Shown here one piece after another: positions 4,092 through 16,675 of a stretch of DNA of 21,530 nt. A model generated the notes under the pieces. That model did not search any database. It was not told the origin of the DNA and saw nothing but the letters and a program-made list of their open reading frames with translations. The stretch's first letter is position 1; each line of letters starts with the position of its first letter. Made by a program: the position numbers and the translations under genes. This DNA comes from a virus, in the IMG/VR virus record IMGVR_UViG_3300032086_001086, positions 1 through 21,530 of that record. One strand, written 5' to 3'.

Positions 4092-5624
4092 TTATCCAAC
4101 TCTTATGATTCGCGATTTGAGAGGTTTCTTGAAATTATAACCGAAATAGTTACCACTTCCACTAAAACTTGCAGCCGAGGATGCCATGGTTAATGCAAGT
4201 GCATCTGCTTTGTCTGGACTTTTTATACCCCTTTTCCTCATTTCGTCCTTGCTTTCTATTTTTATCTTTCCGCTTGAGGTATATTTGTACAAAGGCGAAG
4301 CGAGTTCCGAGGCAAGCTCGTCATCAATAGGAAGTCGGCAATCACGCTTCGCCAACCAATCTTTTACCTCAAACCATAATTCTGCTCGGAGATTCAAATA
4401 ATTCTTTTTAGTCGCAGGAGCTTCCGCCACATTCACACCGCGCACAGGGAGATTTTGCTCTGCGAGGCGATCGACCACTCCTGATCCTAAACCAATAACA
4501 TCGACTAAGATCTCGCTTGGCGTTTCCATCGCAGTTGCATCATCGTATCTGTTCTTGACCGCACCGCATAACTGCATGAGATCCATGCTAGGGAATGTGA
4601 TCATCTCGATGACTGTGTTCCCTTGGCGCACGCACAGCGCGGAGTTATCTCCGCCGAAGCGTGCGACATCTAAGCCCCAGACTATGGGCGCGGAGGCGGT
4701 GAGGGAAACATCGCGCCCCATCGCTGCGCGGATGAGTTCCATGGGTATGACAGTATCGTCATCTGCAGACGGGAACTCACCCATAACTTCAACGCGAGCG
4801 ACTGTGGAATCTTCGCCATACTGTTCGATCATCTTTTGGAAAAGGGCTTGGTCTGTGCCTTCGACTGTGCGCGAGTCGATCTGTTCGGTTTTCCAGTATG
4901 CGCGCTTGGCGTGGAAGGAATCGTAGAATGGCCCTGTGTTTCTGCGCGGGTTGGAGAAGGTAAACCAAAAGCGGTTTTGCGTGGGTTCGGAGAAGAATCC
5001 TTCTGACACGCTGTATATGGGCGCGGGGATACCTGATGCCTCATCCATGATTAGGCAGACTCCGTATGATGAGTGAATACCAGCGAAAGCATCTGGGTTT
5101 TCTTCTGACCATAGTTGCGCTTGCGCGTAGTAGTAACCAGTATCAATTTTTAAGTCGCGGATTAGGGCTTCTTCAAACCATGGTGCTGGTTTTATGGTGG
5201 TGGCTGTTTTAGCAAACCAATGTGAGTTGATAGATAGCGTTAACCATTTACCTAATTCAGCCCATGTTCTTGATCTAAGCTGTTGTTCAGTATTGGCGGT
5301 AACAATTATGGTAGAGCCAAGCCTTGTGGATAGCATCCATAGTATTAACCAAGACACTAAGGCTGATTTACCAATACCACGCCCCGATGCCACCGCCAAT
5401 CTAAACATTTCAGGTAAGTCTTTAACCTGGTTTCTTTGTATGTGTGTTGAAATTTCCCTCAAAATTTTTTCTTGCCACTTCCTTGGCCCTGAGAAATGCT
5501 CGAGGGGGGTGTTAGGTTCTCCCCATGGGAAGATGAATCTGACAAAGTTTAACGGATCATCTTTTATATTCATTGACCAAACAGAGGTCATCAATTCCTT
5601 TTCTTGCTCTGGTTTGTATTTCAT
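4092..5624 (-). CDS. terL: Terminase large subunit (packaging ATPase/nuclease)
   Basis: A 510-aa motor that pumps DNA into the prohead and cuts concatemers. The ATPase has a Walker A at about 80-88 (SGRGIGKSA), a Walker B at about 189-196 (VCLIMDEA) and a coupling region near FTFSNPRRN (222-230). The C-terminal RNase H-like nuclease shows acidic residues in GLDVARFGGDNS (Asp319), ILVDVIGLG (Asp375) and SPDKADALA (Asp471/474). It is complete in length. The start has only a weak GAGATAA site, and 159 bp separate it from TerS, unusual in this otherwise packed module. Its central part is visibly more GC-rich, with many GCGC tetramers, than the flanking genes. Confidence 0.96.
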   Translation of the reverse strand: MKYKPEQEKELMTSVWSMNIKDDPLNFVRFIFPWGEPNTPLEHFSGPRKWQEKILREISTHIQRNQVKDLPEMFRLAVASGRGIGKSALVSWLILWMLSTRLGSTIIVTANTEQQLRSRTWAELGKWLTLSINSHWFAKTATTIKPAPWFEEALIRDLKIDTGYYYAQAQLWSEENPDAFAGIHSSYGVCLIMDEASGIPAPIYSVSEGFFSEPTQNRFWFTFSNPRRNTGPFYDSFHAKRAYWKTEQIDSRTVEGTDQALFQKMIEQYGEDSTVARVEVMGEFPSADDDTVIPMELIRAAMGRDVSLTASAPIVWGLDVARFGGDNSALCVRQGNTVIEMITFPSMDLMQLCGAVKNRYDDATAMETPSEILVDVIGLGSGVVDRLAEQNLPVRGVNVAEAPATKKNYLNLRAELWFEVKDWLAKRDCRLPIDDELASELASPLYKYTSSGKIKIESKDEMRKRGIKSPDKADALALTMASSAASFSGSGNYFGYNFKKPLKSRIIRVG

Positions 5625-5648
5625 AAAAAAAATTATCTCAACAGTTTA

Positions 5649-5677
5649 TATATATACGCACTACGCTGGGTGTTCAA
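5649..5677 (-). promoter_or_regulatory. Possible promoter for terL
   Basis: Read on the minus strand, TTGAAC (5677-5672) is followed after 17 nt by TATATA (5654-5649) within a longer TA run, about 30 nt before the terL start codon. Each box matches four of six sigma70 consensus positions. The -35 box lies inside one arm of the inverted repeat at 5671-5723, so binding at the repeat could control it. The match is moderate and TA-rich runs are common here. Confidence 0.3.
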
Positions 5678-5723
5678 GGGGGGGTAATTCCTGGAAGGAT
5701 CAAGAATCGGCAACCCTTGAACA
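5671..5723. repeat. Perfect 10-bp inverted repeat between terS and terL
   Basis: TGTTCAAGGG at 5671-5680 is exactly reverse-complementary to CCCTTGAACA at 5714-5723, with a 33-nt loop containing the rest of a G7 run. The gap between terS and terL is 159 bp, the longest in the packaging module. It could be an RNA stem-loop, an operator, or part of a packaging initiation (cos/pac) site, which often lie next to terS. The role is not decided by sequence alone. Confidence 0.6.
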
Positions 5724-5724
5724 T

Positions 5725-5777
5725 GCGCGCGTGCGCTTACATACAGAAGGGAGAAGATGAGATCTGCGCGCGCGTGC
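5725..5777. repeat. Paired GCGCGCGTGC direct repeat
   Basis: GCGCGCGTGC occurs at 5725-5734 and again at 5768-5777, 43 bp apart, in the untranslated space just downstream of terS. Both copies sit in alternating purine-pyrimidine GC tracts, unlike the AT-rich surroundings. With the inverted repeat next to it this makes a compact, structured, GC-rich block. Possible roles are a terminase recognition site or a protein-binding site; both are inference. Confidence 0.5.
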
Positions 5778-5783
5778 ATTTGC

Positions 5784-6278
5784 CTAGTTATCGTTGGAGC
5801 TGTCGCTCTCCTTCAAAAGAAACTGCCCCTTCTTTTCTAGCGTTTCTACCTTTTTGCCCTCGATTATGCGTGTATTGGCATTTTCCAGAACATTGGATAA
5901 GTTGATACTGTTCTCTATCTGTTGAACATCCGCCCAAGGATTGCCAGCTTCTTTTCCTTTGTTCTTTAAAAAGAATATTTGTGCGCTAACGGATGGGTCG
6001 CGCCCATTTCTCCCTGTAGCGGAATCAAACAGAGCTGCGCTGACCTGCTCTATGCTCCTTAACTTTCCGCGCCTTATATACTGTTCAATATTTGCAAATT
6101 CTTTTTTACGCCTTTGCAATGTAGTTACAGAACAACCAAATACAGCCTTACATAATGCTTCTTCAGAAAAACCAAGGCCAGCTAATCGCTCCGCTTCCTG
6201 TAGTTGTTCATCTGTAAAAGTTATCTTTTTTCTGCCTGGTTTACCCTTTTTTTCTTCCATTATTGCAGTATTTTGCAT
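5784..6278 (-). CDS. terS: Terminase small subunit
   Basis: A 164-aa protein expected to recognise the packaging site and hand DNA to TerL. Residues 14-60 (GRKKITFTDEQLQEAERLAG followed by FSEEALCKAVFGCSVTTLQR) form a helix-turn-helix of the type found at the N-terminus of TerS. A helical, basic central region (KEFANIEQYIRRGKLRSIEQVSAALFDSA) suits ring formation, and the tail is acidic and polar (ESDSSNDN). Its position directly before TerL and its length agree with the family. The start ATG at 6278 has a GGGAG ribosome binding site about 8 nt upstream. It is the first gene of the leftward packaging operon, facing away from the early operon. Confidence 0.85.
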   Translation of the reverse strand: MQNTAIMEEKKGKPGRKKITFTDEQLQEAERLAGLGFSEEALCKAVFGCSVTTLQRRKKEFANIEQYIRRGKLRSIEQVSAALFDSATGRNGRDPSVSAQIFFLKNKGKEAGNPWADVQQIENSINLSNVLENANTRIIEGKKVETLEKKGQFLLKESDSSNDN

Positions 6279-6295
6279 TTTTTTTGCTCCCTTTT

Positions 6296-6315
6296 AACCC
6301 TTATTCTATAGGGTT
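6296..6315. promoter_or_regulatory. Palindromic candidate operator AACCCT-N8-AGGGTT
   Basis: A 6-bp inverted repeat with an 8-nt centre (6296-6301 and 6310-6315), 18 bp upstream of the terS start and 47 bp before the early promoter. Its size suits a dimeric repressor, but the symmetry is short and no repressor gene is visible next to it. Confidence 0.35.
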
Positions 6316-6330
6316 TTTACAACATATATA

Positions 6331-6350
6331 CATATTTATACATATTTATA
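6331..6350. repeat. Tandem 10-bp repeat CATATTTATA x2
   Basis: Two exact copies of CATATTTATA (6331-6340, 6341-6350), preceded by a degenerate third (ACATATATA). They lie 11 bp upstream of the -35 box of the early promoter, one helical turn apart. The placement fits an AT-rich UP element or an activator/repressor binding site on the same DNA face. Confidence 0.5.
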
Positions 6351-6361
6351 GTAGAAAAGTG

Positions 6362-6390
6362 TTGACATGTGTATATATGCGTAGTTTAAT
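6362..6390 (+). promoter_or_regulatory. Strong sigma70-type early promoter
   Basis: TTGACA (6362-6367) is a perfect -35 box, then a 17-bp spacer, then TTTAAT (6385-6390), matching five of six positions of TATAAT. Transcription should begin near 6397, about 26 nt before the first early gene, whose leader holds AAAGGAGG at 6411-6418. It is the best promoter seen in the window and should be used by host RNA polymerase right after infection. Confidence 0.8.
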
Positions 6391-6422
6391 ATGATTATTG
6401 ATTATTCACTAAAGGAGGAAAA

Positions 6423-6728
6423 ATGGATAACAACAAACAAGATATCTACACATTAGAGCAAAATCTAATTGAAGAGCTTAACGATAACAAAGAAAAGATA
6501 TTAGAATCAAAATATCCTGAAGATTTGATTAATGAATATGCTGATAGTTGGGTTCCAATATATAACTATGATTTATTAAAAGTTGCTCAGTCAGACTTAA
6601 CTTTGGGTTATGTACATGATTCTGATCTCGGAGAAGGAGATATTTATTTCTTGCTTTCTTGTTCAATACGAGAAAGGCTTACTAATATTGGTTGGAATTG
6701 GTTAAATCAGCAAGTAGAGGTTGCATAA
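6423..6728 (+). CDS. First early-operon gene, acidic 101-aa protein, unknown
   Basis: ATG at 6423 follows AAAGGAGG after 4 nt and the promoter at 6362-6390. The protein is acidic and largely helical at the N-terminus (LEQNLIEELNDNKEKILESK), with an aromatic-rich middle (DSWVPIYNYDLL) and a hydrophobic C-terminal part (YFLLSCSIRERLTNIGWNWL). No signal peptide, metal site or enzyme motif is visible and I recognise no family. As the promoter-proximal gene with the best translation signal, it should be among the first and most abundant phage proteins, as expected for a host-takeover or anti-defence protein; that role is inference. Confidence 0.85.
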   Translation: MDNNKQDIYTLEQNLIEELNDNKEKILESKYPEDLINEYADSWVPIYNYDLLKVAQSDLTLGYVHDSDLGEGDIYFLLSCSIRERLTNIGWNWLNQQVEVA

Positions 6729-6919
6729 TGAATATTCAAAGACAAGAAGGCAATTTAAAACAAGTAATATTCCTGGATGCTGGAAAGGTTAAAGGAAGAA
6801 ATTATTTAATTAAACAAGGTTTTACACCTTGCAGAAATAAAGACTATTTAACCAACGGAAAGCTAACAGGCCATTACAACAGGTTTAAAAAATGTTGGCT
6901 ATTTGGGGAGAACTCATAA
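6728..6919 (+). CDS. Small basic early protein, 63 aa, unknown
   Basis: I chose ATG 6728 (MNIQRQEGNL), which overlaps the preceding stop by one base (TAATG) and has AGAGG 8 nt upstream. A TTG at 6692 would add 12 residues inside the previous gene and is less likely. The protein is basic, with beta-type KQVIFLDAGKVKG and aromatic residues (NYLIKQGF, GHYNRFKKCWLF). Two cysteines are too few for a metal site. No family recognised. Confidence 0.75.
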   Translation: MNIQRQEGNLKQVIFLDAGKVKGRNYLIKQGFTPCRNKDYLTNGKLTGHYNRFKKCWLFGENS

Positions 6920-7038
6920 TGAAAGACTACATAAACCACAAACCACAACCGCCAATTCATTGGACGGATACAGCACGCGTTATAAGTGAAATCTTTATAT
7001 GCGTGATCTCTGTTTTAACTTTAATATTTTTGGTTTAA
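6919..7038 (+). CDS. Single-pass membrane mini-protein, 39 aa
   Basis: ATG at 6919 overlaps the previous TAA (TAATG), and a TAA ends it at 7036-7038. The first 23 residues are polar with a proline cluster (HKPQPPIHW). Residues about 22-39 (ISEIFICVISVLTLIFLV) form one C-terminal membrane segment that runs to the end. A tail-anchored layout like this can place a short cytoplasmic peptide on the inner membrane. It may act on host membrane functions early in infection, for instance in superinfection exclusion, but no homology supports this. Confidence 0.6.
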   Translation: MKDYINHKPQPPIHWTDTARVISEIFICVISVLTLIFLV

Positions 7039-7047
7039 GGAGGATAA

Positions 7048-7248
7048 ATGAAAACTATTAATAAAAAGAAATACTACATTATGCACAATGTAGGGAAAGT
7101 TAAATATTTAATAAACTTCCACGATGGACAAAAAACCCATCAAGACGGAAGTGATTTTTATGATATTGGATGTTTTTCTAATAAGAGAAAATTAGCCCAA
7201 TTTGAAAAGCAATTAATTAACAATGGTTACATAGAGGGCAGACCATGA
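7048..7248 (+). CDS. Small early protein, 66 aa, recurrent phage type, unknown
   Basis: ATG at 7048 with TAAGGAGG at 7036-7043. The middle KYLINFHDGQKTHQDGSDF, then YDIGCFSNKRKL, is a pattern I have seen in short proteins of several phages, with alternating strands and a C-terminal helix (KLAQFEKQLINNGYI). No catalytic motif is present. The stop overlaps the next start as ATGA (7245-7248). The function is unknown; the recurring pattern makes this one of the more certain early genes. Confidence 0.8.
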   Translation: MKTINKKKYYIMHNVGKVKYLINFHDGQKTHQDGSDFYDIGCFSNKRKLAQFEKQLINNGYIEGRP

Positions 7249-7505
7249 CTGAGAATACACACAAAGTAAAAAAGCGTGATGAAGAAATGAAGGCAGAGCG
7301 CATGGATAATATGTATACCCAAATATATGCAAGATGGGATAAAAACAATCCTTACCATGAGGATTTTATAGAAACCAAATATGCAAGCGGTAGAGTTGCT
7401 AATTACAAATTTGATGAGCCAAATAAAGTAACTACCACTTGGGAAAGGGCAAGAAATAAATTTTTTAAGTTTTGGGATAAACCCAGGAAAAAGGAGAACG
7501 ACTAA
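7245..7505 (+). CDS. Small charged early protein, 86 aa, unknown
   Basis: ATG at 7245 overlaps the preceding TGA (ATGA), so it is coupled. The N-terminal third is a highly charged helix (KVKKRDEEMKAERMDNMY), the centre is aromatic and charged (KNNPYHEDFIETKYASGR), and the C-terminus is basic and aromatic (RNKFFKFWDKPRKK). There is no recognised domain. It may bind nucleic acid or a host protein, but this is a guess. Confidence 0.8.
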   Translation: MTENTHKVKKRDEEMKAERMDNMYTQIYARWDKNNPYHEDFIETKYASGRVANYKFDEPNKVTTTWERARNKFFKFWDKPRKKEND

Positions 7506-7510
7506 TAGAC

Positions 7511-7624
7511 ATGGCTACGATCCTAAAAGGGTTTATTTTTTTATTCTCTACAGGATTGTTAGCCATTCTTACCATGTTACTAGGAAACGCGTACATTGAT
7601 TATAAGGAGGGAAAAGATGATTAA
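7511..7624 (+). CDS. Single-pass membrane mini-protein, 37 aa
   Basis: ATG at 7511, TAA at 7622-7624. The end overlaps the start of the next gene at 7617. Residues about 5-25 (LKGFIFLFSTGLLAILTMLL) form one membrane segment, and the tail is charged (YKEGKDD). The frame fills the gap between two better-supported genes. Its ribosome binding site is weak (AGGAGAACGACTAATAGAC before the ATG). The hydrophobic run is unlikely by chance but does not prove expression. Confidence 0.5.
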   Translation: MATILKGFIFLFSTGLLAILTMLLGNAYIDYKEGKDD

Positions 7625-7868
7625 TAATGCAAGATTTTATTTTAACTACCAAGGCGATTCTATAGAGTGGACTTACAAAGGTTCTATGGATGACGACAAG
7701 AGCGCACTATATCGCGCCTATAAACATGCTACCTACAAGCCAAGATTAAACGATTTTAAGATTCTGGACACAAAGGGCCACAACTTAACCAACATTAAAA
7801 AGGCATTGCTAGAAAGCATTAACGAACAACCAAAAGAAAAACCAAAAACAATATGGGGGAAAAGATGA
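7617..7868 (+). CDS. Small basic early protein, 83 aa, unknown
   Basis: ATG 7617 follows AAGGAGGG after a few bases. The TTG at 7596 in the same frame is rejected because it would disrupt that ribosome binding site. The sequence starts with strands (ARFYFNYQGDSIEWTYKG), has a charged helix (DDDKSALYRAYKHATY) and ends with a second helix and a basic proline-rich tail (EQPKEKPKTIWGKR). It overlaps both neighbours: 8 nt with the preceding membrane peptide, 4 nt (ATGA) with the next gene. No family recognised. Confidence 0.75.
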   Translation: MINNARFYFNYQGDSIEWTYKGSMDDDKSALYRAYKHATYKPRLNDFKILDTKGHNLTNIKKALLESINEQPKEKPKTIWGKR

Positions 7869-8200
7869 TTTATTGTGAAAAGACGATTTATTGTGGCGAT
7901 ACACCAATAAATTTAAGCCCAAGAAAAAGAAAAGATAGAGAGATACAAGCCTTGGTTAAGAATCTTGCAGAAAAGCAAATGCAGGAAAAAATGCTAAAAA
8001 CTCAATTAAGTGCTATAGAAAGGCGTCTAAATAAACTTTTGAAAGAATGGTTTAAAGAGAATCCAATTACAGAAACAGCTATATGTGCTTATAAGCCATG
8101 CAGTAAAGAATTTACAAGGAAATTAAAAACTTGCGGAAGATTAAAAATAACATGCAGTGATTCTTGTAGAACACTAAAAGCTAGAAACAGGAGGAGATAA
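7865..8200 (+). CDS. Coiled-coil protein with C-terminal Cys4 zinc-finger-like motif, 111 aa
   Basis: I choose ATG 7865, which gives an ATGA overlap with the previous stop and a GGGGGA site upstream; ATG 7853 would add four residues. Residues about 18-72 form a long charged helix (KRKDREIQALVKNLAEKQMQ and on), probably a coiled coil. The C-terminus holds ICAYKPCSKEF, then KTCGRLKITCSDSC, so CxxxxC plus a CxxxC pair, followed by a basic tail (RTLKARNRRR). The CSDSCR ending is typical of small phage zinc ribbons that bind nucleic acid. A role in transcription or host interference is inferred. Confidence 0.75.
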   Translation: MIYCEKTIYCGDTPINLSPRKRKDREIQALVKNLAEKQMQEKMLKTQLSAIERRLNKLLKEWFKENPITETAICAYKPCSKEFTRKLKTCGRLKITCSDSCRTLKARNRRR

Positions 8201-8355
8201 TGCAAGAAGTTAAAATAATAGACTTACAAATATATGCTTACACAGATGACTTTTTAATTGGCATCTTTGATAACAAAATATTAAGCGATAAAACCAAAGA
8301 AGCAATCAAGCAAGATGTAGAAAAACATATCGAGGGAGAAAATAATGACTTTTGA
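8200..8355 (+). CDS. Small acidic early protein, 51 aa, unknown
   Basis: ATG at 8200 overlaps the previous stop TAA by one base and lies 3 nt after AGGAGGAG-type bases at 8190-8196. The stop TGA is at 8353-8355. The protein is acidic with a beta-type N-terminus (IIDLQIYAYTDDFLIGIF) and a helix (SDKTKEAIKQDVEKHI). Its 3' end overlaps the next gene by 11 nt. No family recognised. Confidence 0.65.
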   Translation: MQEVKIIDLQIYAYTDDFLIGIFDNKILSDKTKEAIKQDVEKHIEGENNDF

Positions 8356-8524
8356 CATGGCAGAACATAAATACCATTGCTACTTACGCGATAGAGGTTA
8401 TATCGGAGAGTTACCTTACGCGAGCAGAGAAACATCTATGCAAACTCCTGAGGGCGATTGGATTTTAAAAGACCAATACGGAGATAAACTCGCAGTAGTA
8501 ACCAAGAACGGAAGAATCATCTAG
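8345..8524 (+). CDS. Last early-operon gene, 59 aa, unknown
   Basis: ATG at 8345 with GAGGGAG about 8 nt upstream, TAG at 8522-8524. The sequence HKYHCYLRDRGYIGELPYAS, then DWILKDQYGDKLAVVT, suggests a small beta-rich fold. No enzyme motif or membrane segment. It ends 4 nt before the first stem-loop at 8529-8581, so it closes the rightward early operon. Confidence 0.65.
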   Translation: MTFDMAEHKYHCYLRDRGYIGELPYASRETSMQTPEGDWILKDQYGDKLAVVTKNGRII

Positions 8525-8528
8525 TTTT

Positions 8529-8581
8529 GGGCGCGTGTTCGGTTTTTATCATTCCCTCCTTACTATGATGAATACGCGCCC
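8529..8581 (+). terminator. Stem-loop at end of early operon (possible terminator)
   Basis: GGGCGCGTGTTC (8529-8540) pairs with GAATACGCGCCC (8570-8581), 12 bp with one G-U pair, loop 29 nt. It starts 4 nt after the last early gene, where opposing transcription must stop. There is no U-tract after it on either strand, so it is not a textbook intrinsic terminator; it may act with Rho or protect the 3' end. The loop contains CCTCCTTA (8555-8562), identical to the end of 16S rRNA. Confidence 0.5.
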
Positions 8582-8599
8582 TTCTTCATGGGGTATTAA

Positions 8600-8638
8600 T
8601 AGGCTATCTTAACTCTCCCTCCTTCAGTAGGTAGCCTA
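8600..8638 (-). repeat. Second stem-loop, at 3' end of the winged-helix gene
   Basis: TAGGCTATCT (8600-8609) pairs with AGGTAGCCTA (8629-8638), 10 bp with one wobble, loop 19 nt. It covers the stop codon of the minus-strand gene and is not followed by a U-tract. It may slow or end leftward transcription before it collides with the early operon. The loop carries CCCTCCTT. Confidence 0.4.
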
Positions 8639-9044
8639 ACCCCACCAATAGAAAATGCTTTTTACCACCTGCCTGCGACTTTCTTAATCTGCGCTTCTCA
8701 TCTTCAAGCACACACCACACCACCTCTTTTTCTATTAATTCGGTAATCGCTCTCCCACAGGTCTTTCTATGCAAACCAACCATCTTGGCGTAATACGCTA
8801 TGGCATCATGCGAGCTGTAAGTTTCCCACCTCCAACGCTCAGTCAGCGCCCACGCGCACAGCTTGGCGCTAGGCGTGAGATCTGTTCTCCCCGCCACCTC
8901 GCGCCTGTACCAACGCCAAACAATATTGCGCACACGCGCAAAGTCTTTCTGCTCACGCACCACGCCCAAGCGCACTAAACCAGATCTCTTAGGATCTTCT
9001 ATCTCTGTCGGTGTCATCCACCAATAATCTTGTTCCCTTCTCAC
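8604..9044 (-). CDS. Winged-helix protein (HTH_36-like), candidate replication initiator
   Basis: I place the start at GTG 9044, preceded by AGGGGG with 6-nt spacing; ATG 9017 (MTPTEIEDP) and ATG 9173 are alternatives, the last adding a repeat-encoded, Arg/Ala-rich N-terminus without a ribosome binding site. In the 146-aa version, about residues 56-110 (LTPSAKLCAWALTERW... HDAIAYYAKMVGLHRKTCGR ...ITELIEKEVV) are a winged helix-turn-helix of the HTH_36 kind, common in phage replication and plasmid Rep proteins. A basic C-terminus follows (KRRLRKSQAGGKKH). The four 22-bp iterons begin 154 bp upstream, as for self-regulating initiators that bind their own origin. DNA binding is well supported; initiation is inferred from context. 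A transcription regulator is the alternative. Confidence 0.7.
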   Translation of the reverse strand: MRREQDYWWMTPTEIEDPKRSGLVRLGVVREQKDFARVRNIVWRWYRREVAGRTDLTPSAKLCAWALTERWRWETYSSHDAIAYYAKMVGLHRKTCGRAITELIEKEVVWCVLEDEKRRLRKSQAGGKKHFLLVGLGYLLKEGELR

Positions 9045-9059
9045 CTCGCACCCCCTGCG

Positions 9060-9076
9060 CTTGCGCTTCGCGCAAG
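9060..9076. repeat. Perfect 7-bp hairpin CTTGCGC/GCGCAAG
   Basis: CTTGCGC (9060-9066) and GCGCAAG (9070-9076) with a TTC loop, just upstream of the ribosome binding site of the winged-helix gene. On the mRNA it would fold next to the start region and could limit translation; on DNA it could be a protein-binding palindrome. Confidence 0.5.
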
Positions 9077-9097
9077 TGCGCCTAATTTCACCTTTGT

Positions 9098-9127
9098 GCG
9101 CGAGTGAGCGCGAGTTTGCGCGAGCAT
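9098..9127. repeat. Three tandem GCGCGAG repeats with 10-bp period
   Basis: GCGCGAG occurs exactly at 9098-9104, 9108-9114 and 9118-9124, each followed by three variable bases. One helical turn per copy puts all copies on the same DNA face, as expected for cooperative protein binding. They lie in the leader of the winged-helix gene. Confidence 0.7.
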
Positions 9128-9131
9128 GCTT

Positions 9132-9166
9132 AGAGAGGGGAAAATGCGCCAGCATTTTACCTCTCT
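9132..9166. repeat. Long hairpin with tetraloop in the origin region
   Basis: AGAGAGG (9132-9138) and AAAATGC (9141-9147) pair with GCATTTT (9152-9158) and CCTCTCT (9160-9166), a 14-bp stem with a small GG/A internal loop and a GCCA tetraloop. The near-perfect pairing over 35 bp argues for selection on structure, not on coding. It separates the iterons from the GC-rich repeats. Confidence 0.7.
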
Positions 9167-9198
9167 CATACATATATAATTCTTATATATTGGATATA

Positions 9199-9286
9199 TG
9201 GATATGTTAGTTACCTTCGTTGGATATGTTCGCCTAGGGTGTTGGACATGTTCGCCTAGGTTATTGGATATGTTAGTAACATTCAT
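9199..9286. repeat. Four 22-bp iterons
   Basis: Copies of TGGAYATGTT start at 9199, 9221, 9243 and 9265, exactly 22 bp apart. The inner two share TGGAYATGTTCGCCTAGG and agree at 19 of 22 positions; the outer two share TGGATATGTTAGTWAC and also agree at 19 of 22, giving an A-B-B-A order. A partial copy TGGATATA lies at 9191-9198. The 22-bp period is two helical turns and is not a multiple of three, which argues against a coding repeat. The array starts at the stop codon of the preceding gene. Confidence 0.9.
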
Positions 9287-9459
9287 TAGGGTATTTCCTT
9301 ACTAAAATTGATCTGCATTATGAGGCTCTCAACCTGCGCTAAGAACTTCTTTTCTTCCATGGTTTGCTTCTTTTTATTCATGGTTGGAAGCGCGTATTGT
9401 CTTAGTGCTTCGTTGAGAATATTTTTATCTTCGCTACTTAGTATTAGTTTTATTGCCAT
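9286..9459 (-). CDS. Small helical protein, 57 aa, unknown
   Basis: ATG 9459 (MAIKLILSSEDKN) is chosen because AAAGGAAAAG lies upstream; the in-frame TTG at 9507 would add 16 residues inside the preceding gene. The protein appears helical (SSEDKNILNEALRQYALP, then EEKKFLAQVESLIMQI) with no metal site. It overlaps the preceding SGKGDK-type gene by 26 nt and ends where the iterons begin. No function known. Confidence 0.7.
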   Translation of the reverse strand: MAIKLILSSEDKNILNEALRQYALPTMNKKKQTMEEKKFLAQVESLIMQINFSKEIP

Positions 9460-9556
9460 CTTTCTTTTCCTTTCGTTTACCAAATATACGATCAAAGTTT
9501 TCTTCAAACTTCTTTCTATCTTTCATTGGTCTTGGTTTGTCGCCTTTGCCACTCAT
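9434..9556 (-). CDS. SGKGDK-type phage mini-protein, 40 aa
   Basis: ATG at 9556 overlaps the TGA of the preceding membrane peptide (ATGA), TAG at 9434-9436. The N-terminus MSGKGDKPRPMKDRKKFEEN and then FDRIFGKRK matches a short conserved protein I recall from many unrelated phages, with SGKGDKPRP and a W/F-D-x-I-F-G ending. Its function is unknown, but the recognisable pattern and a GGAGG upstream make it a real gene despite its size. It is lysine-rich and overlaps the next gene by 26 nt. Confidence 0.75.
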   Translation of the reverse strand: MSGKGDKPRPMKDRKKFEENFDRIFGKRKEKKDGNKTNTK

Positions 9557-9630
9557 TCCTGCCTCCAAATTGTCCATATAGCTAAGACTGCCAGGAATAC
9601 TATTAAATTGGTTATAAAAAATTCATTCAT
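9553..9630 (-). CDS. Membrane mini-protein, 25 aa
   Basis: ATG at 9630 directly follows the methyltransferase stop, whose last codons contain GGAGG 5 nt upstream as ribosome binding site. TGA at 9553-9555 overlaps the next start. Residues about 4-22 (FFITNLIVFLAVLAIWTIW) form one membrane helix, ending RQE. The flanking coupled genes support translation; the function is unknown. Confidence 0.55.
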   Translation of the reverse strand: MNEFFITNLIVFLAVLAIWTIWRQE

Positions 9631-10227
9631 CTATACCTCCATATTTTTAATATAAGTTCCCCATTGATCTGCCATAGCTTCTGCAATACCAGGATAAAAC
9701 TTACTCCTTTCTTTTCCTTTACCCCCCCCTATCCACCAAATCCTATGTTTATCTTTTGGGTGCAATTTATCGGTTTCCTCTTTTACATTATTTGTTTCAA
9801 TTAATTTGGGTAGATTTTTTAACCAAAGACAAGTTCTTTTGTATTCCTTGTGGCCAAATTGATATGGATTTATCATTTGATCTGATTTTCTAATATAAGA
9901 AGATATAACGCTTACAGGATTTTCTATTGCAATATGTTTAATGGGTGCATCCATAAGTTTTTTAACAAACTCAATAGCATCATCTCTTAAATACATTGGT
10001 TTTTTCCCCTCTGTAAACCATCTAGCGCCACTTACTGATAAATGAGTGCAAGGTGGGTGAGCTATCATTAAATCCCAACCATCATAAAGAATATCGAATA
10101 TATCTCCTTGATAATGTTTTCCAGGCTTTTCGGTTTCTAATAAATCGCAGCTAGTAGCGTCAAACCCTTTATCTTCAAAAGCACTTCTAACTATTCCGCT
10201 ATATTCACATGCTATTAATACTTTCAT
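9631..10227 (-). CDS. DNA (cytosine-5) methyltransferase-like protein, short form
   Basis: At 198 aa this is much shorter than typical C5 methyltransferases (300 or more). Motif I-like CEYSGIVRSAF (7-17) would bind AdoMet. AHPPCTHLSVSG (56-67) contains the Pro-Cys catalytic pair with Cys60, and IENP (101-104) is the motif VI glutamate. No clear target-recognition domain or motif VIII follows; the C-terminal half has HKEYKRTCLWLKNLP and HRIWWIGGG, as in the phage subfamily I remember. It would methylate cytosine in phage DNA, protecting it from restriction, or act in regulation. The ATG at 10227 has GAGGAG upstream. Recognition sequence unknown. Catalytic activity is likely but not certain given the short length. 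Confidence 0.8.
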   Translation of the reverse strand: MKVLIACEYSGIVRSAFEDKGFDATSCDLLETEKPGKHYQGDIFDILYDGWDLMIAHPPCTHLSVSGARWFTEGKKPMYLRDDAIEFVKKLMDAPIKHIAIENPVSVISSYIRKSDQMINPYQFGHKEYKRTCLWLKNLPKLIETNNVKEETDKLHPKDKHRIWWIGGGKGKERSKFYPGIAEAMADQWGTYIKNMEV

Positions 10228-10239
10228 TATTTTCTCCTC

Positions 10240-10254
10240 GTGTATGTATGTGTA
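10240..10254 (-). promoter_or_regulatory. CA-rich leader element upstream of methyltransferase
   Basis: On the minus strand TACACATACATACAC ends 12 nt before the ATG, directly before the GAGGAG site. The same 15-mer with one mismatch stands at exactly the same distance before the integrase. The unstructured CA-rich sequence could aid ribosome loading, or be a regulator site. Role inferred. Confidence 0.45.
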
Positions 10255-10273
10255 AGTAAGTGTATATTAATCT

Positions 10274-12100
10274 TTAATAACCATCAAAGTTAAATTTGTT
10301 TTGCTCATAAGGCTCAAGCACCGCACCGCGCCTAAAGAGAGTTTTTACTGTGGTATCTATCTCACTAGAGTTAGATTTCACCACCCCACCGCGCACCACA
10401 CGCAGAGGATCAAACTCCACGCCCTCATCAATGCAGATGCGCTCTGCTTCCTCCTCTTTCGCAAGCCACAGACCAAACGCCTGGCGTGCTGAATCCACAA
10501 GGGCTGTTGCGCCTCTAATGTAGGAGCGTGCAAGCATAGGATCATCGGTATGAGAAAGAGCAGCCTTACTCATGTGATGGATGCTCATAACGCTTGCTCC
10601 TAATTGCGAGGAGATAGAGGCGCACAGCTGACCATATAATTGTGCTGCTTCATTGCTTGATGACAACGGAGCTGCACTCATTGCTTGAATCGGATCAAGA
10701 ATCACTAAAGCCAGATCATTAATCTTGCCTAGTTCATCTACCAATTCATTAGCTTGATCGGTGATATGTAAACCATCTTTGTTATCTTTGAGAAGTATCA
10801 TAGGTTGTTCGGTATCAGGAATGGTATAAGCGAAAGTATCATACAAAGTGTCATACCTTTTTTGTTCAGGATCTAAAGCCATAATCCTTCTATGTAATTC
10901 GTGTTGATCGTCCTCTGCACTTATATAAACCACATTGCCAGATTTAATAATTGGATGACCAAACCAAGTGCCATGACCTCTAGTAACTTTTAATGCAAGA
11001 TCTAAGGCCAACATAGATTTACCCACGCCACCAATACCTGCAAAGATAGATGGCTTACCTTTTTCTAAAAACTTATCCACAAGAAATTCACGCTTGGGTG
11101 GCTCGCCTTTATAGTTTTTAATTGAGAATCTAGTGATGCCTAGACTGCTGGTTATGATTTCTTTAGCAACACGCTCTAATCCATGCTCTAAATACATATC
11201 GTTGTAATCGCCTGTAATGCTCGGTATGCGCTTGAAACAATTAGGGTAGGCATTTGCTATATCTTGTGCATTTCGTTGTCCCACAGAGCTTGTATCGCTG
11301 TCTAAGGCTATGTATATTTTGCATTGTGATACTCCTCTGATGTTTTTAACCGCCTGCAAACCAAAATTCGCAGAAAAAACACACGCGGTTGGTATCTTAG
11401 TAGCCTCATATACAGTCGCTGCGGTTGCGTAACCTTCAACAACGATAAGCTCTTTTATTTGTGGTAATTCATCCACGCTAAAACCAAGACAAAACATGTT
11501 GCCCTTGATCTCTCCGCCTGGATAAAACTTTTTATTGCCCTTTTTATCAATGTACTGTAGTGAACGAATGTCCCCTGTGATATTATGCACAGGAACAACC
11601 AAACTATCATTTGGATCTGTTTTTAAACCATAGCTTTTAACTTTTTTATTTGTGAGATATTCATGTTCAGTCGTATTTTTGTAAGATGCAAAGAGTTCGT
11701 TTACCTCTGTTGCCACTTCCTCGTTCCTATTTTTCTTAGCTTCTTCCAGCCTGTGTTGAGCCTCCGCCATTTGTTGTTTTAATTTAGCGGTATCTACAGG
11801 ACTAAGTGTGCTGGTATCTATAGAACTCCATTTACCTTCAAAACCTGTTTTCCAATTACCAAAGGTAGCAAAGTAATTACCTGATAATTCGTTAACAACA
11901 TACCAACCTGATCTTTGATTAGATCGATCTGCTTTAGATCCTAGTCCTTCGCCCACACGCACGCGCACCAAGCTTCCACTTGTGTCCAGATGATCTACTT
12001 GCAGACCATGATTGGATAACTCCCCCACCAAATCATTAAGATCTGGCATCCTGACTTTGGATTGCTCTTTGTAGTTTTCTAAATACTTAGATAGATCCAT
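10274..12100 (-). CDS. Primase-helicase (Toprim domain fused to RepA-like helicase)
   Basis: A 608-aa fusion for the replication fork. After an N-terminal region with GWYVVNELSGNYFATFGNWK (65-84), typical of TraC/DUF-type primases, and a coiled helix (105-130), a Toprim fold has VVEGYATAATVYEA (220-233, Glu222) and IYIALDSDTSS (262-272, Asp267/Asp269). The C-terminal half is a RecA/RepA-like ATPase: Walker A GIGGVGKS (355-362), VYISAEDD (391-398), Walker B LVILDP (465-470) and a sensor-like HHMSKAA (508-514). No zinc-binding primase domain is visible. A phage-encoded helicase removes the need for a lambda P-type loader. Its C-terminal segment is locally GC-rich. Confidence 0.9.
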   Translation of the reverse strand: MDLSKYLENYKEQSKVRMPDLNDLVGELSNHGLQVDHLDTSGSLVRVRVGEGLGSKADRSNQRSGWYVVNELSGNYFATFGNWKTGFEGKWSSIDTSTLSPVDTAKLKQQMAEAQHRLEEAKKNRNEEVATEVNELFASYKNTTEHEYLTNKKVKSYGLKTDPNDSLVVPVHNITGDIRSLQYIDKKGNKKFYPGGEIKGNMFCLGFSVDELPQIKELIVVEGYATAATVYEATKIPTACVFSANFGLQAVKNIRGVSQCKIYIALDSDTSSVGQRNAQDIANAYPNCFKRIPSITGDYNDMYLEHGLERVAKEIITSSLGITRFSIKNYKGEPPKREFLVDKFLEKGKPSIFAGIGGVGKSMLALDLALKVTRGHGTWFGHPIIKSGNVVYISAEDDQHELHRRIMALDPEQKRYDTLYDTFAYTIPDTEQPMILLKDNKDGLHITDQANELVDELGKINDLALVILDPIQAMSAAPLSSSNEAAQLYGQLCASISSQLGASVMSIHHMSKAALSHTDDPMLARSYIRGATALVDSARQAFGLWLAKEEEAERICIDEGVEFDPLRVVRGGVVKSNSSEIDTTVKTLFRRGAVLEPYEQNKFNFDGY

Positions 12101-12491
12101 CCTCTATTACCTTCTCTAGCTTGCCTGTTCTTGCTTGTTCATTGGCCCAAGTCAAGTAAGCATCAACTATGCGTAGGTAAAAGAGTTCACGATCCTCTCT
12201 GCTCCACTCGTGGAGAACATAAGATTTATTCTTTTTAGAGATATCTATATAGGATTGTTTGCTTGCAGCGATTGTGTGTTCTATTCCTTCATCACATGCT
12301 ACTGCTACTCTTTTCAATTTCTTACCCTCGCGTATAAGTTCTAAATGTTCTTTGCAACAGCATCCATAAATGCTGTCGTTGTTTATCAGAAGTCTAGGGC
12401 TTTGCGCTGGGAGGAAACAATATCCACACAGCGCAGGCCTAAACTTCTTTGGATTAAAATGGTATTTCGTCTGATTCTTCCTGACTAACAC
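12087..12491 (-). CDS. Zinc-binding small protein, 134 aa, unknown
   Basis: The start is GTG 12491, with GAGGAG 7 nt upstream and a 38-nt overlap with the end of the SSB gene; no in-frame ATG exists near it. Residues 22-25 (CGYC) and 44-49 (CCCKEH) suggest a zinc site. The rest is helical and charged (KLKRVAVACDEGIEHTIAAS ... EQARTGKLEKVIEDG). The stop overlaps the helicase start by 14 nt. In the replication operon it may bind DNA or help load the helicase; neither is shown. No family recognised. Confidence 0.75.
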   Translation of the reverse strand: MLVRKNQTKYHFNPKKFRPALCGYCFLPAQSPRLLINNDSIYGCCCKEHLELIREGKKLKRVAVACDEGIEHTIAASKQSYIDISKKNKSYVLHEWSREDRELFYLRIVDAYLTWANEQARTGKLEKVIEDGSI

Positions 12492-12933
12492 TTGGCTTCT
12501 CCTCTTTAACTGCTACAGGTTTTTCTTTCTCTGTTACAGGTTTATAGTTTTTGCCATAGTCGTCATCAATTCTCAGATAACCCTTTTCATTTTCAATGAT
12601 ATTGCAGACCACAGTTTTTCCAACTATGCCATCAGTTGATTTATTTGTTTCGCTAATTTTTTCTAAACCAGCAGCTACTAATAAACCATTGAGTTTTCTT
12701 ATTCCAACATTAACTGCCTTTGGATTTCCATTAGAAATGGTATACCACTCTTTAACAGAAGCAGATCCTGCTGGAAAAATAAACTCAATCTCTACCTGTT
12801 TATACGGCCCATTCTTGTCCTCTCCTACAACCAAAGATTCTTTTGCAACTTTGATTTTATGTATACCAGGTTCAATCCTTGAGCCACCCATATCGATTTG
12901 TTCATCGAAAACTATTTCATTATTTAAGTCCAT
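12454..12933 (-). CDS. ssb: Single-stranded DNA-binding protein (DUF669-like)
   Basis: A 159-aa protein with the beta-rich pattern of phage DUF669/SSB-like proteins: PGIHKIKVAKESLVVGEDKN, EIEFIFP, KEWYTISN and TVVCNIIENEKGYLRIDD. A disordered Lys/Glu/Pro tail ends in DEIPF, a copy of the acidic SSB C-terminal tip (classically DDDIPF). The tip recruits partner proteins such as recombinases, helicases and primases. ATG 12933 has AGGGAG at 7 nt. It lies between the Sak4-like gene and the helicase, a common recombination module order. Family assignment from pattern, tip from direct reading. Confidence 0.8.
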   Translation of the reverse strand: MDLNNEIVFDEQIDMGGSRIEPGIHKIKVAKESLVVGEDKNGPYKQVEIEFIFPAGSASVKEWYTISNGNPKAVNVGIRKLNGLLVAAGLEKISETNKSTDGIVGKTVVCNIIENEKGYLRIDDDYGKNYKPVTEKEKPVAVKEEKPSVSQEESDEIPF

Positions 12934-12950
12934 TAATTACTCCCTAAAAA

Positions 12951-13151
12951 TTATCCCAAATCATACGAATCATATTTTTCAAGATGATCAATATAATCTG
13001 AGATATCTGCGTTAATAAATGCAAGCCACTTAAACCCGTCATGCGGTAAGTTGTTGTTATCTTCATCAATCGTTTTTAATTGTTTATCTAAAACTTTATT
13101 AACTCGTCTTAATGAAACTAACAGTCTTTCGGTTTCGGGTAGTTTGCTCAC
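12951..13151 (-). CDS. Small helical acidic protein, 66 aa, unknown
   Basis: GTG start at 13151 in a GTGA overlap with the Sak4-like gene, with AAGGAA about 8 nt upstream. The protein begins with a helix (ETERLLVSLRRVNKVLDKQL) and ends with an aromatic acidic helix (INADISDYIDHLEKYD). It fills the space before SSB and is presumably part of the replication/recombination operon. Unknown family. Confidence 0.7.
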   Translation of the reverse strand: MSKLPETERLLVSLRRVNKVLDKQLKTIDEDNNNLPHDGFKWLAFINADISDYIDHLEKYDSYDLG

Positions 13152-13996
13152 TTCAACATTTCCTTACGGATTACTTCCCAATCCATAGGTAATTCAGGTG
13201 GCAATCCATATCTATTTTTTGCAAGATAGCCTGGATCATCCTCCGTGAAAATGGTTCTTTCTCCTTTGTGGACTTTGGTTGTCATGCCACCACTTTTGCC
13301 TTTGATAGAAACAGTACCTAACTTTCTAGCACAAAAGAACACAGCATCAGCGTGTTCAACGATTAAGTCAGACGCTTTTCTGTGGAGTTTAATTTGATGG
13401 CGGTCCATTGGATCTTGTGTGGGATCTTCATATCTTTTTATTTCATTGTGAGCTATTTGGACTACAGTTTTACCAGCATCTCTAAGTTCATCAACAACAC
13501 TAAGATATTCTTTCCACTCATTGAGAGCAGCTACATAACCCTTACCATAGGCAGGTGTATCTATCTGCGCCCAACCATTTTGTTCGCAAACATGTCGCCA
13601 TAAAAGACCTTCAGCCCAATCAAGACTATCAACGCCAACAATTTTATGAGGCCTTTGAACACACTCTCTCAAATTTTCCATAAATTCTTCCCAGCTCGCC
13701 GCGCATTCATAATGATCGCACTCAATCTTTCCAATGCCATCTTCTGTTTGAACCATAATAACTCCATGCGTTCCAAGCCATACGCTGTCTTGTGGGTATA
13801 TTGGGTTCTCGCCTTCTATGCCTTCCTCCCATTCTTTCTTAGTAACATCTTCAGCAATAATATTGTACTCAGAATCTCTGACGACATTTCTGCCCATGTG
13901 TGTAACATAGTGTGTTTTACCAATTCCACCAGTTCCATATAAAACAATTATTGGTGGCTTTAGCTTTGCTTTACTTCTAATTTCTTTTAGGCTCAT
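13148..13996 (-). CDS. Sak4-like RecA-fold ATPase (single-strand annealing type)
   Basis: A 282-aa ATPase with Walker A GTGGIGKT (21-28), Walker B KIVGVDSLDW (118-127) and further RecA-fold elements: GKTVVQIAHNEIKRY, DPMDRHQIKLHRKASDLI and ADAVFFCARK. Sak4 proteins are shortened RecA/RadA-like annealing or recombination ATPases of phages, usually working with an SSB and an exonuclease; both are encoded next to it. Residues 29-115 form a longer, acidic connection between the two Walker motifs (GRNVVRDSEYNIIAEDVTKK and following). ATGA overlap couples it to the DUF6447 gene. Confidence 0.85.
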   Translation of the reverse strand: MSLKEIRSKAKLKPPIIVLYGTGGIGKTHYVTHMGRNVVRDSEYNIIAEDVTKKEWEEGIEGENPIYPQDSVWLGTHGVIMVQTEDGIGKIECDHYECAASWEEFMENLRECVQRPHKIVGVDSLDWAEGLLWRHVCEQNGWAQIDTPAYGKGYVAALNEWKEYLSVVDELRDAGKTVVQIAHNEIKRYEDPTQDPMDRHQIKLHRKASDLIVEHADAVFFCARKLGTVSIKGKSGGMTTKVHKGERTIFTEDDPGYLAKNRYGLPPELPMDWEVIRKEMLK

Positions 13997-14262
13997 TGCA
14001 CTACCTCAACAGTTTCTTCTTTATCGCCACCTTCAACAGCATCTTTTAATAAATTACTGTAGTGCTGAGATAGCAACTCTAGTTTCTCAACTTCAAAGTT
14101 AAGATTGCCAATTTGGTTTAAGGCATCTCTCCTTTGGTTATTTAGAAGAACAACTTTGTTATATAAAAGTTTGTTCTCATCACTTAAGTCATCAACCTTA
14201 TACTCTTGACCATCTTCCTCAAAAGTAAAAGTTAACTCTTCTTTTTTATTTTCTTCGGACAT
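13993..14262 (-). CDS. DUF6447-like coiled-coil protein, 89 aa
   Basis: LTFTFEEDGQEYKVDDLSDE is followed by a long helix (VVLLNNQRRDALNQIGNLNF ... EVEKLELLSQHYSNLLKDAV). This is the layout of phage DUF6447 proteins: a short beta unit with a 'dLSdE' turn, then a coiled coil. ATG 14262 directly follows the exonuclease stop with GAGGAG upstream; the end overlaps the ATPase start (ATGA). Its function is unknown; location in the exonuclease-Sak4 operon hints at recombination. Confidence 0.75.
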   Translation of the reverse strand: MSEENKKEELTFTFEEDGQEYKVDDLSDENKLLYNKVVLLNNQRRDALNQIGNLNFEVEKLELLSQHYSNLLKDAVEGGDKEETVEVVQ

Positions 14263-14985
14263 TTATTTCTCCTCGTATCGTTTATAAGTATCACAGTTAA
14301 TTTTGAATGCACAGAATCTACAATGATCCCCTGCAACAAACTGTGGGTTTTCTTCAAAGCAAGCATCAACTGCTGGCTTTAAATCATTGAAGCCCCAATG
14401 CACAAGATTGGGTGCTGAAATCTCAAATGTTTTTATGGGGTTGCTAACTTTTGGTTGCACAATAGTCAGCTCCATAGTGATATCAGGATTACCACCTCCG
14501 TATCTGGTTAATGCTCCTAAGCCATAGATCATTAACTGTTTATTTTTCACAGGATCTACAGCCCATTTACCAGACTTTAAATCAATCACACAAATTCTAT
14601 TTTCTGCTAATAAGATACAGTCAGCAGTTCCATAGCATTTATCTGATATCTCATCAAGGTAAACCTTTTCTTCAATCACCCTCCGCGCACCAAGTTCTTC
14701 TTCTCTTTTCAATATATAGTCAACATAAACTTCCGCGCAGTTAATCATCTCCTCATCAATTTCTATTTCAAAATCTTCTATGACTTCTTTTCTATCCAAC
14801 CAATAATCGCGCAATGTCATATCGCGTAAACGATCCTTTAATAACATTTCTGTCATATGGTGAATGAGTGTTCCGTTAGCAGCAGCTAAACTGGTTTCGT
14901 ATGGCATGTCTGCATTAGCTAATACAGAGCCTGCACATTTAAACCAGCGTTCTGCTGATGATGGACTAGCTAGTGCGTGCGCCAT
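14263..14985 (-). CDS. Cas4/RecB-like exonuclease (DUF2800 family)
   Basis: A 240-aa PD-(D/E)XK nuclease. The N-terminal LASPSSAERWFKCAGSVLAN is the DUF2800 signature with Cys17. The catalytic core is YGTADCILL (Asp122), VIDLKSGK (Asp135, Lys137) and KQLMIYGLGA (Gln150, Tyr154). CRFCAFKINC (Cys222, 225, 231) with Cys17 can hold a 4Fe-4S cluster, as in Cas4 and AddB. It would resect double-stranded ends so that the Sak4-type protein and SSB can act. The start at 14985 lies inside the end of the excisionase-like gene (20-nt overlap) with no strong ribosome binding site of its own, so it is probably translated by coupling. Confidence 0.85.
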   Translation of the reverse strand: MAHALASPSSAERWFKCAGSVLANADMPYETSLAAANGTLIHHMTEMLLKDRLRDMTLRDYWLDRKEVIEDFEIEIDEEMINCAEVYVDYILKREEELGARRVIEEKVYLDEISDKCYGTADCILLAENRICVIDLKSGKWAVDPVKNKQLMIYGLGALTRYGGGNPDITMELTIVQPKVSNPIKTFEISAPNLVHWGFNDLKPAVDACFEENPQFVAGDHCRFCAFKINCDTYKRYEEK

Positions 14986-15169
14986 TAGAAATGTATGAAT
15001 CCTTTTCTAAAGTTTCTATTTCAGAAAGTTCGTATAAAACCTTGCCACCTATTTTGTAATAGTTAGGCCCTTGGTTTTTACCTCTCCAATTCTCTAATGT
15101 TCTTGGACTTTTGTTCCAGCGTTTCGCTAGCTCGTAAGTGTTTAAAAATACTTTATTGCTTTCAGACAT
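14966..15169 (-). CDS. xis: Excisionase-like MerR/AlpA-type HTH protein
   Basis: A 67-aa protein with LNTYELAKRWNKSPRTLENW (9-28), a helix-turn-helix, then GPNYYKIGGKVLYELSEIE, the wing and last helix of the HTH_17/MerR-type excisionase fold. Such proteins bend DNA at att sites to steer an integrase to excision, or act as repressors or activators. As first gene of the leftward replication block and facing the palindromic operator at 15202-15214, it could autoregulate. ATG 15169, with GGGAG 10 nt upstream. The fold is strong; excisionase versus regulator is open. Confidence 0.75.
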   Translation of the reverse strand: MSESNKVFLNTYELAKRWNKSPRTLENWRGKNQGPNYYKIGGKVLYELSEIETLEKDSYISNGARTS

Positions 15170-15199
15170 TTCTTTTAAGCTCCCTTTTGTATCTATTTA

Positions 15200-15229
15200 T
15201 TGTGTAAATTACACTTTTTCCCTTATAAT
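15200..15229 (+). promoter_or_regulatory. Rightward promoter of the DUF3310 gene
   Basis: TATAAT (15224-15229) is a perfect -10 box 34 nt before the ATG at 15263. A weak -35 TTGTGT (15200-15205) lies 18 bp upstream, overlapping the palindrome. The poor -35 suggests need for an activator or low basal strength. Confidence 0.5.
15202..15214. promoter_or_regulatory. Perfect palindrome GTGTAA-A-TTACAC (candidate operator)
   Basis: A perfect 6-bp inverted repeat around one base, in the 93-bp space between the excisionase-like gene and the rightward DUF3310 gene. It lies between the -35 and -10 positions of the rightward promoter region, where a bound dimer would block RNA polymerase. The excisionase-like protein or an unseen repressor might bind it. 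Confidence 0.55.
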
Positions 15230-15262
15230 TGCAATAACTAATTTTAAAAAAGGGAGTTAAAG

Positions 15263-15577
15263 ATGAGCATTGATAATGTTACAGAAAAAGATTGGGATGA
15301 AGCTATTAGAAATTTAGCTTCTAAAAAACAGATTGGGGGTGTCCATTACAAGACATTAAAGATATCTCCAACTGAATATGTTTATGCGAACAATCTGTCT
15401 TGGAATCTTGGTAATGTAGTTAAATACATAACCAGAAGAAAGACAGACCAGGTGGAAGATCGTGTTAATGATCTTCTGAAAGCAAAGCACTACATAGACC
15501 TAGAGTTGCAAATGGTTTATGGCAGAGATGCAGATGGAAATGACATAGGGCCATACACTATAGAAACTAAGGTCTAG
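15263..15577 (+). CDS. DUF3310 protein, 104 aa
   Basis: GGVHYKTLKISPTEYVYANN, then NLGNVVKYITRR and RVNDLLKAKHYIDLEL, is the DUF3310 pattern (His-Tyr near the start, 'vvKYi-R', 'DL-KA-hYi'), found widely in phages. It is thought to relate to nucleotide metabolism proteins, but its reaction is not established. ATG 15263 with GGGAG about 7 nt upstream. It is the first gene of a two-gene rightward unit divergent from the replication block, behind a TATAAT box and palindrome. Family call is confident. Confidence 0.88.
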   Translation: MSIDNVTEKDWDEAIRNLASKKQIGGVHYKTLKISPTEYVYANNLSWNLGNVVKYITRRKTDQVEDRVNDLLKAKHYIDLELQMVYGRDADGNDIGPYTIETKV

Positions 15578-15587
15578 GAGTATGGAT

Positions 15588-15794
15588 ATGAACTTAGCAG
15601 ACTTTAACGATCCTATTCTTACAGAGAGGAATGGGAGAAAGCCTGTCTATATGGACAGACATTTGGTTAAAGACTTTTTAGTATTCTGTAAAGATCATAA
15701 CAAAGATCCTCATAGCGTTGCTGAATACCTACTTAAACTAGGTATTCATGCAACTCAAAAGGATAATGTTTGTATTGATATAGATAACTTATAA
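15588..15794 (+). CDS. Small protein, 68 aa, possible ribbon-helix-helix
   Basis: I use ATG 15588, which has AGGAG at 7 nt; ATG 15582 would leave only one base of spacing. The segment KPVYMDRHLVKDFLVFCKDH, then KDPHSVAEYLLKLGI, has a short strand and two helices, resembling a ribbon-helix-helix dimer, but this is a weak match. It may regulate the nearby operator. Its TAA (15792-15794) and the integrase TAA share the palindrome TTATAA. Confidence 0.65.
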   Translation: MNLADFNDPILTERNGRKPVYMDRHLVKDFLVFCKDHNKDPHSVAEYLLKLGIHATQKDNVCIDIDNL

Positions 15795-16643: not shown

Positions 16644-16655
16644 ATTAGTCCCTTT

Positions 16656-16670
16656 GTGTATGTTTGTGTA
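16656..16670 (-). promoter_or_regulatory. CA-rich leader element upstream of integrase
   Basis: On the minus strand TACACAAACATACAC, one mismatch from the copy before the methyltransferase (10240-10254), and like it ending 12 nt before the ATG. It sits in a 32-bp gap between the nuclease and integrase genes and may aid or control translation or promoter use. Confidence 0.45.
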
Positions 16671-16675
16671 GTTTA

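Follow-up and report, generated by a model that had tools for sequence, protein, structure and literature searches.

Among the closest known counterparts of the locus considered here is Ocr (gp0.3) of phage T7, which is the first protein made in T7 infection and has a pI of 4.02 (PMC2806950). It acts by blocking the DNA site in Type I restriction-modification and BREX methyltransferase complexes (PMC2806950, PMC7261183, PMC10149784), its inhibition extends to BREX, and its homodimer interface lies at F54/A58 (PMC7261183). In the T7 early region (genes 0.3-0.7), a lead Ocr gene is followed by several tiny proteins behind sigma-70-type promoters. Another acidic anti-restriction DNA mimic is ArdA (PF07275). 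Accessory-gene and counter-defence hotspots of phages (for example, PMC12373910 and PMC9122126) combine fixed flanks with exchanged small accessory genes, including anti-defence genes. Ocr, T7-style early regions, and counter-defence hotspots are subjects already known. The ten-gene operon analyzed in this study is like the T7 early region in its lead gene, its tiny proteins, and its promoter type; however, no phage RNA polymerase gene or gp0.7 kinase is visible in the window, the operon stands alone between opposite-strand genes, and its content is exchanged between sister phages. Unlike those hotspots, it keeps the promoter fixed and swaps the promoter-proximal genes, and it belongs to an uncultured aquatic phage group.

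Phage setting and structure of the operon

The window, i.e., the whole stretch of DNA analyzed, is a linear virus record of 21,530 bases with a GC content of 38% (33% in the operon). On the sequences of its terminase and portal, the phage is grouped with the epsilon15-like podoviruses: the portal matched phrog_1216 (E 4e-150), and the terminase was 48-51% identical to those of unclassified freshwater podoviruses and 37% identical to that of epsilon15. The phage is a virus of aquatic bacteria, and its group is uncultured. A search of phage records with the entire window at the nucleotide level gave no match, and an Rfam search returned nothing. Searching genomes with the terminase yielded only two matches, one in a contig of a Ca. 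Pelagibacter MAG (85%) and one in a MAG of a gammaproteobacterium (61%); since viral contigs find their way into MAGs, these matches were considered insufficient for a host assignment. A tyrosine integrase gene (15789-16643, minus strand) and an HTH_17 excisionase-like gene (14966-15169, minus strand) suggest that the phage may be temperate. Between the integrase and a large virion gene lies a gene for a PD-(D/E)XK endonuclease-like protein (16676-17071, minus strand; E 1.8e-5, slightly under the Pfam cut-off), and a second short plus-strand pair, a DUF3310 protein followed by a small ORF, occupies 15263-15793.

Genes for the terminase, the portal, replication, and the large virion proteins occupy the minus strand. 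The ten-gene operon lies opposite to them on the plus strand. Its neighbours are terS (5784-6278), which is transcribed divergently from it, and a convergent minus-strand gene at 8604-9173. The operon is real. Its ten plus-strand ORFs at 6423-8524, listed in the initial annotation, were recovered with the lengths shown in Table 1. Their junctions are short or overlapping, with TAATG or ATGA at 6728, 6919, 7245, 7865, and 8200 and overlaps at 7617 (8 nt) and 8345 (11 nt), and a purine-rich ribosome site precedes most of the ten starts. An additional ORF from the gene caller (6284-6394, plus strand) overlaps the promoter and was treated as spurious.

Table 1. Features of the ten-gene operon and its flanks, with the basis of each assignment.
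Feature	Position	Strand	Basis
Two tandem copies of ACATATTTAT, AT-rich	6330..6349	+	Direct reading; 12 nt before -35
Sigma-70-like promoter TTGACA-17-TTTAAT of the operon	6362..6390	+	Sequence; conserved placement in relatives
g1, 101 aa, Ocr-family DNA mimic (anti-restriction, predicted)	6423..6728	+	PHROG, profile, fold; median dN/dS 0.25
g2, 63 aa, basic (pI 9.9)	6728..6919	+	ORF packing; 99.3%-identical contig and 42% match
g3, 39 aa, single-pass membrane peptide, family F7, 13 loci	6919..7038	+	Hydropathy 2.8; median dN/dS 0.29
g4, 66 aa, basic	7048..7248	+	ORF packing, AAGGAGG site; one near-identical contig only
g5, 86 aa, basic, family F1, up to 35 loci	7245..7505	+	Median dN/dS 0.22
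g6, 37 aa, single-pass membrane peptide, family F10, 10 loci	7511..7624	+	Hydropathy 2.1; median dN/dS 0.19
g7, 83 aa, core protein, family F2, 23 loci	7617..7868	+	Median dN/dS 0.13
g8, 111 aa, very basic (+16), lysine-rich segment then C4 zinc-finger-like motif	7865..8200	+	Sequence
g9, 51 aa, acidic	8200..8355	+	AGGAGGAG site; one near-identical contig
g10, 59 aa, family F0, 37 loci, helix and small sheet	8345..8524	+	Median dN/dS 0.19; pLDDT 95
12-nt inverted repeat, 29-nt spacing, between convergent gene ends	8529..8581	.	Fold z-score -3.2

Relatives were gathered using the terminase and gene 1 as queries, and the interval from terS to the 8604-type gene was compared in 85 loci. The share of Ocr-bearing cassettes is biased upward because the search with gene 1 brought in 16 loci (L082-L097). 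Purifying selection was detected in six of the ten genes (g1, g3, g5, g6, g7, and g10), with median dN/dS values from 0.13 to 0.29. Genes g4, g8, and g9 occur elsewhere only in one 99.3%-identical contig, to which g2 adds one weak match (42%, L099). These four genes are almost without independent homologues, and their coding status thus rests on packing and ribosome sites.

The promoter had been described in the initial annotation as near-consensus. TTGACA (6362-6367) and TTTAAT (6385-6390) are present at a 17-nt distance and match in 11 of 12 hexamer bases, but the wording was generous, as position 2 of the -10 hexamer, normally A, is T. Because of this T, the promoter is missing from a stricter promoter scan. 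Its reality is better shown by its conserved position than by its hexamers. In 48 of 54 distinct relatives, the start of the best sigma-70-like site falls 56-78 nt ahead of the first gene, compared with 12 (maximum 21) in dinucleotide shuffles. The mean promoter score of the 54 distinct upstream regions was 9.37 versus 8.69 ± 0.09 in shuffles, the regions being related to one another and hence not 54 independent trials. Across 5600-16700, sigma-70-like sites were rarer than in shuffles (17 vs. 35, sd 5.7). The tandem 10-bp repeats reported upstream do exist, but as only two exact copies of ACATATTTAT, which are not generally conserved and recur only in the closest kin, L002 and L003; they are a possible UP element. 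The inverted repeat behind the operon is a possible terminator, though without a strong T run.

Beyond the convergent gene, upstream of its start, iteron-like direct repeats with a 22-bp period were observed at 9188-9287. In relatives, arrays with a period of 21-23 bp and differing repeat sequences occupy the same place; they occur in 24 of the 37 distinct upstream regions, in no shuffle, and in 0.3% of random pieces. The repeat sequence seems to vary in step with the 8604-type protein, resembling the pairing of an initiator with its origin.

Gene 1 and the Ocr family

The proteins of the operon had been regarded as nearly all without recognizable families, a view that overlooked gene 1, a recognizable member of the Ocr (T7 gp0.3) family. 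Its membership is well supported by sequence, charge, and predicted fold. In PHROGs, gene 1 matched phrog_2568, the group of T7 Ocr annotated as 'ocr-like anti-restriction', with an E-value of 3.6e-8, and all 15 aligned gene 1 homologues matched the same group (best 6e-16). The family profile searched against the whole PDB returned T7 Ocr as the sole entry (E 0.003-0.004), and hhalign to T7 Ocr gave an E-value of 1e-4 at a probability of only 55%. A single-sequence search of the PDB with gene 1 found nothing, and tblastn against cultured phages gave nothing significant. The AlphaFold model (pLDDT 84.5) had Ocr chains as its first five Foldseek matches, all with E-values above 0.1. With VIA-align, Ocr took the first seven PDB places, at Z 9.6-11.2 and an rmsd of 2.9-3.4 over 96-100 residues, and the next entry had a Z of 6.6. 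Among the matches of the fold to viral models were T7-like 0.3 proteins and an 'OCR-like antirestriction protein'.

Gene 1 resembles T7 Ocr (PDB 1s7z) in predicted fold, length range, and very low pI (4.08, net charge -13; family 4.05-4.39 and -13 to -21), in the conserved VPxY and acidic helix positions, and in its lead place in a small-gene run behind host-type promoters. It differs in being 20-25% identical, in having 14 fewer acidic residues (20 vs. 34), in lacking the acidic C-terminal tail, and in its setting, an epsilon15-like phage with an integrase and not a T7-like one. The residues aligned to the dimer positions F54/A58 of T7 Ocr are L52 and Q56. ArdA, an acidic anti-restriction DNA mimic carried in the same cassette by a sister phage (L054), belongs to a different family and size class, and gene 1 gave no match to it.

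The other nine genes and the exchange of cassette content

Both single-pass membrane peptides reported earlier, g3 and g6, were confirmed, the hydropathy values in Table 1 being the best 19-residue Kyte-Doolittle means. The protein reported as coiled-coil/zinc-finger corresponds to g8, where direct reading revealed a C-x4-C...C-x3-C motif after a long lysine-rich segment; its homologue search found none except one near-identical contig. The most widespread cassette gene is g10, whose model had no clear match in the PDB. A profile match linking g10 with the adhesin AbpA (E 1e-3, 27 residues) found no support in the fold search and was rejected. No relative of g7 was found in the PDB. Matches of the nine other proteins to Bsp6I, Mis12, Cas2, and similar entries in Pfam, PHROGs, and PADLOC were sub-threshold only and were taken as chance. 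The same general libraries gave no match of the cassette proteins to a known Acr or Aca family. Predicted single-pass membrane proteins of no more than 60 aa, from several sequence-unrelated families, were present in 37 of the 42 distinct complete cassettes.

Complete cassettes span about 1.2-5.3 kb, with 5 to 20 called genes each. The distal families are recurrent: g10 in 37 loci, g7 in 23, and g5 in up to 35, an upper figure given partly transitive clustering and poorly aligning divergent members. The promoter-proximal genes vary. Eight pairs of loci are 91-100% identical over the 120 nt before the first gene and have unrelated first genes. The first gene is Ocr in the window and belongs to an 84-aa family in L002, the terminases of the two being 100% identical; it is Ocr in L067 and a DUF7222 protein in L066. 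Families F20, F28/DUF7222, F37, F40, F58, F94, and others also stand first behind near-identical promoters. Among sister phages with 71-100% identical terminases, the cassette content is swapped; in addition to the ArdA of L054, their cassettes include a DNA methylase and an MT-A70 methyltransferase, so that ArdA, DNA methyltransferases, and many unrelated small proteins occupy the same slot. In other loci, a number of the called 5'-most ORFs may be spurious, and Ocr ordinal positions above 2 are upper bounds. The site is an exchangeable slot, with a fixed promoter flank and unrelated genes in sister phages. An Ocr-like gene was also observed at the head of a divergent small-gene run beside the terminase of an unrelated podovirus (L097:4845-5159). 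The Ocr-led arrangement crosses phage lineages, since the terminase and portal of that phage are different.

Interpretation of the cassette

It is quite likely that the locus is an exchangeable cassette for counter-defence, with a lead gene whose Ocr-type product inhibits Type I restriction and possibly BREX. For the early timing, the dimerization, the enzyme target, and the roles of the other nine genes, we infer the following. Host RNA polymerase would use the sigma-70-like promoter soon after DNA entry and produce one polycistronic mRNA. The first product would be an acidic helical protein, presumably a dimer like Ocr, and would fill the groove in which Type I restriction-modification enzymes, and possibly the BREX protein PglX, bind DNA; incoming unmodified phage DNA would thereby be neither cut nor blocked. 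Genes g2-g10 may have related host-interaction roles. The promoter and some distal genes (g10, g7, and g5) are retained, and the promoter-proximal genes are swapped between sister phages, an exchange to be expected of a counter-defence or host-interaction slot. From location alone, the initial annotation had proposed host takeover, anti-restriction, or anti-CRISPR genes; the anti-restriction part gains support through gene 1, but the other functions were not recognized in g2-g10.

Expression in lysogeny is a live rival because of the integrase and the HTH_17 excisionase-like gene, which point to a temperate phage. The divergent cassette would then be expressed from the prophage, with membrane peptides and small proteins serving in superinfection exclusion or as morons and with the Ocr-like gene as just one component. 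The frequency of cassettes with at least one membrane mini-protein fits such a module, as does the 'repressor protein C' found in a small-gene run facing away from terS in the distant relative DSL-LC05. However, Ocr-type proteins are known for acting on incoming DNA, Pfam and PHROGs recognized no repressor gene in the window's cassette, and integrase relatives occurred in only two of the fetched loci, many of which are short fragments. A lysogeny or superinfection module is considered improbable. Slightly less probable still is an Ocr-fold DNA mimic aimed at another DNA-binding target, such as host RNA polymerase, which T7 Ocr also binds (PDB 6r9b). The smaller number of acidic residues in gene 1 would suit a changed target, but the ArdA and methyltransferase genes of the sister cassettes argue for restriction as the shared selective pressure.

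A reading of the ORFs as ordinary accessory genes for structure or packaging was rejected as having next to no probability. A weak PHROG 'tail tube' match of g5 (E 5.6e-4) is the point in its favor, but it lacks Pfam support, gene 1 is Ocr-like, the operon is opposite in strand to the terminase and portal, and its content is exchanged among sister phages with 71-100% identical terminases. No member of the cassette proved convincingly structural; plain structural homologues had been named in advance as evidence against an early operon.

An extension of the counter-defence reading is more tentative, at somewhat below an even chance: the promoter-proximal position may be a dedicated exchangeable anti-defence slot, in which F20, F28/DUF7222, F37, F40, F58, F94, and others would be new defence inhibitors, and the near-universal single-pass membrane mini-peptides would form a second, membrane-acting layer.

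The most useful new point is the promoter-fixed exchange slot, for which no priority is claimed, the literature compared being openly licensed papers. The results extend the Ocr-type DNA mimics to an uncultured group of epsilon15-like phages that lies far from T7. They also define where to look for further candidates: behind the conserved promoter, between terS and the 8604-type gene with its preceding iterons, small proteins that take the place of Ocr or occur together with ArdA in a cassette can be gathered for counter-defence assays.
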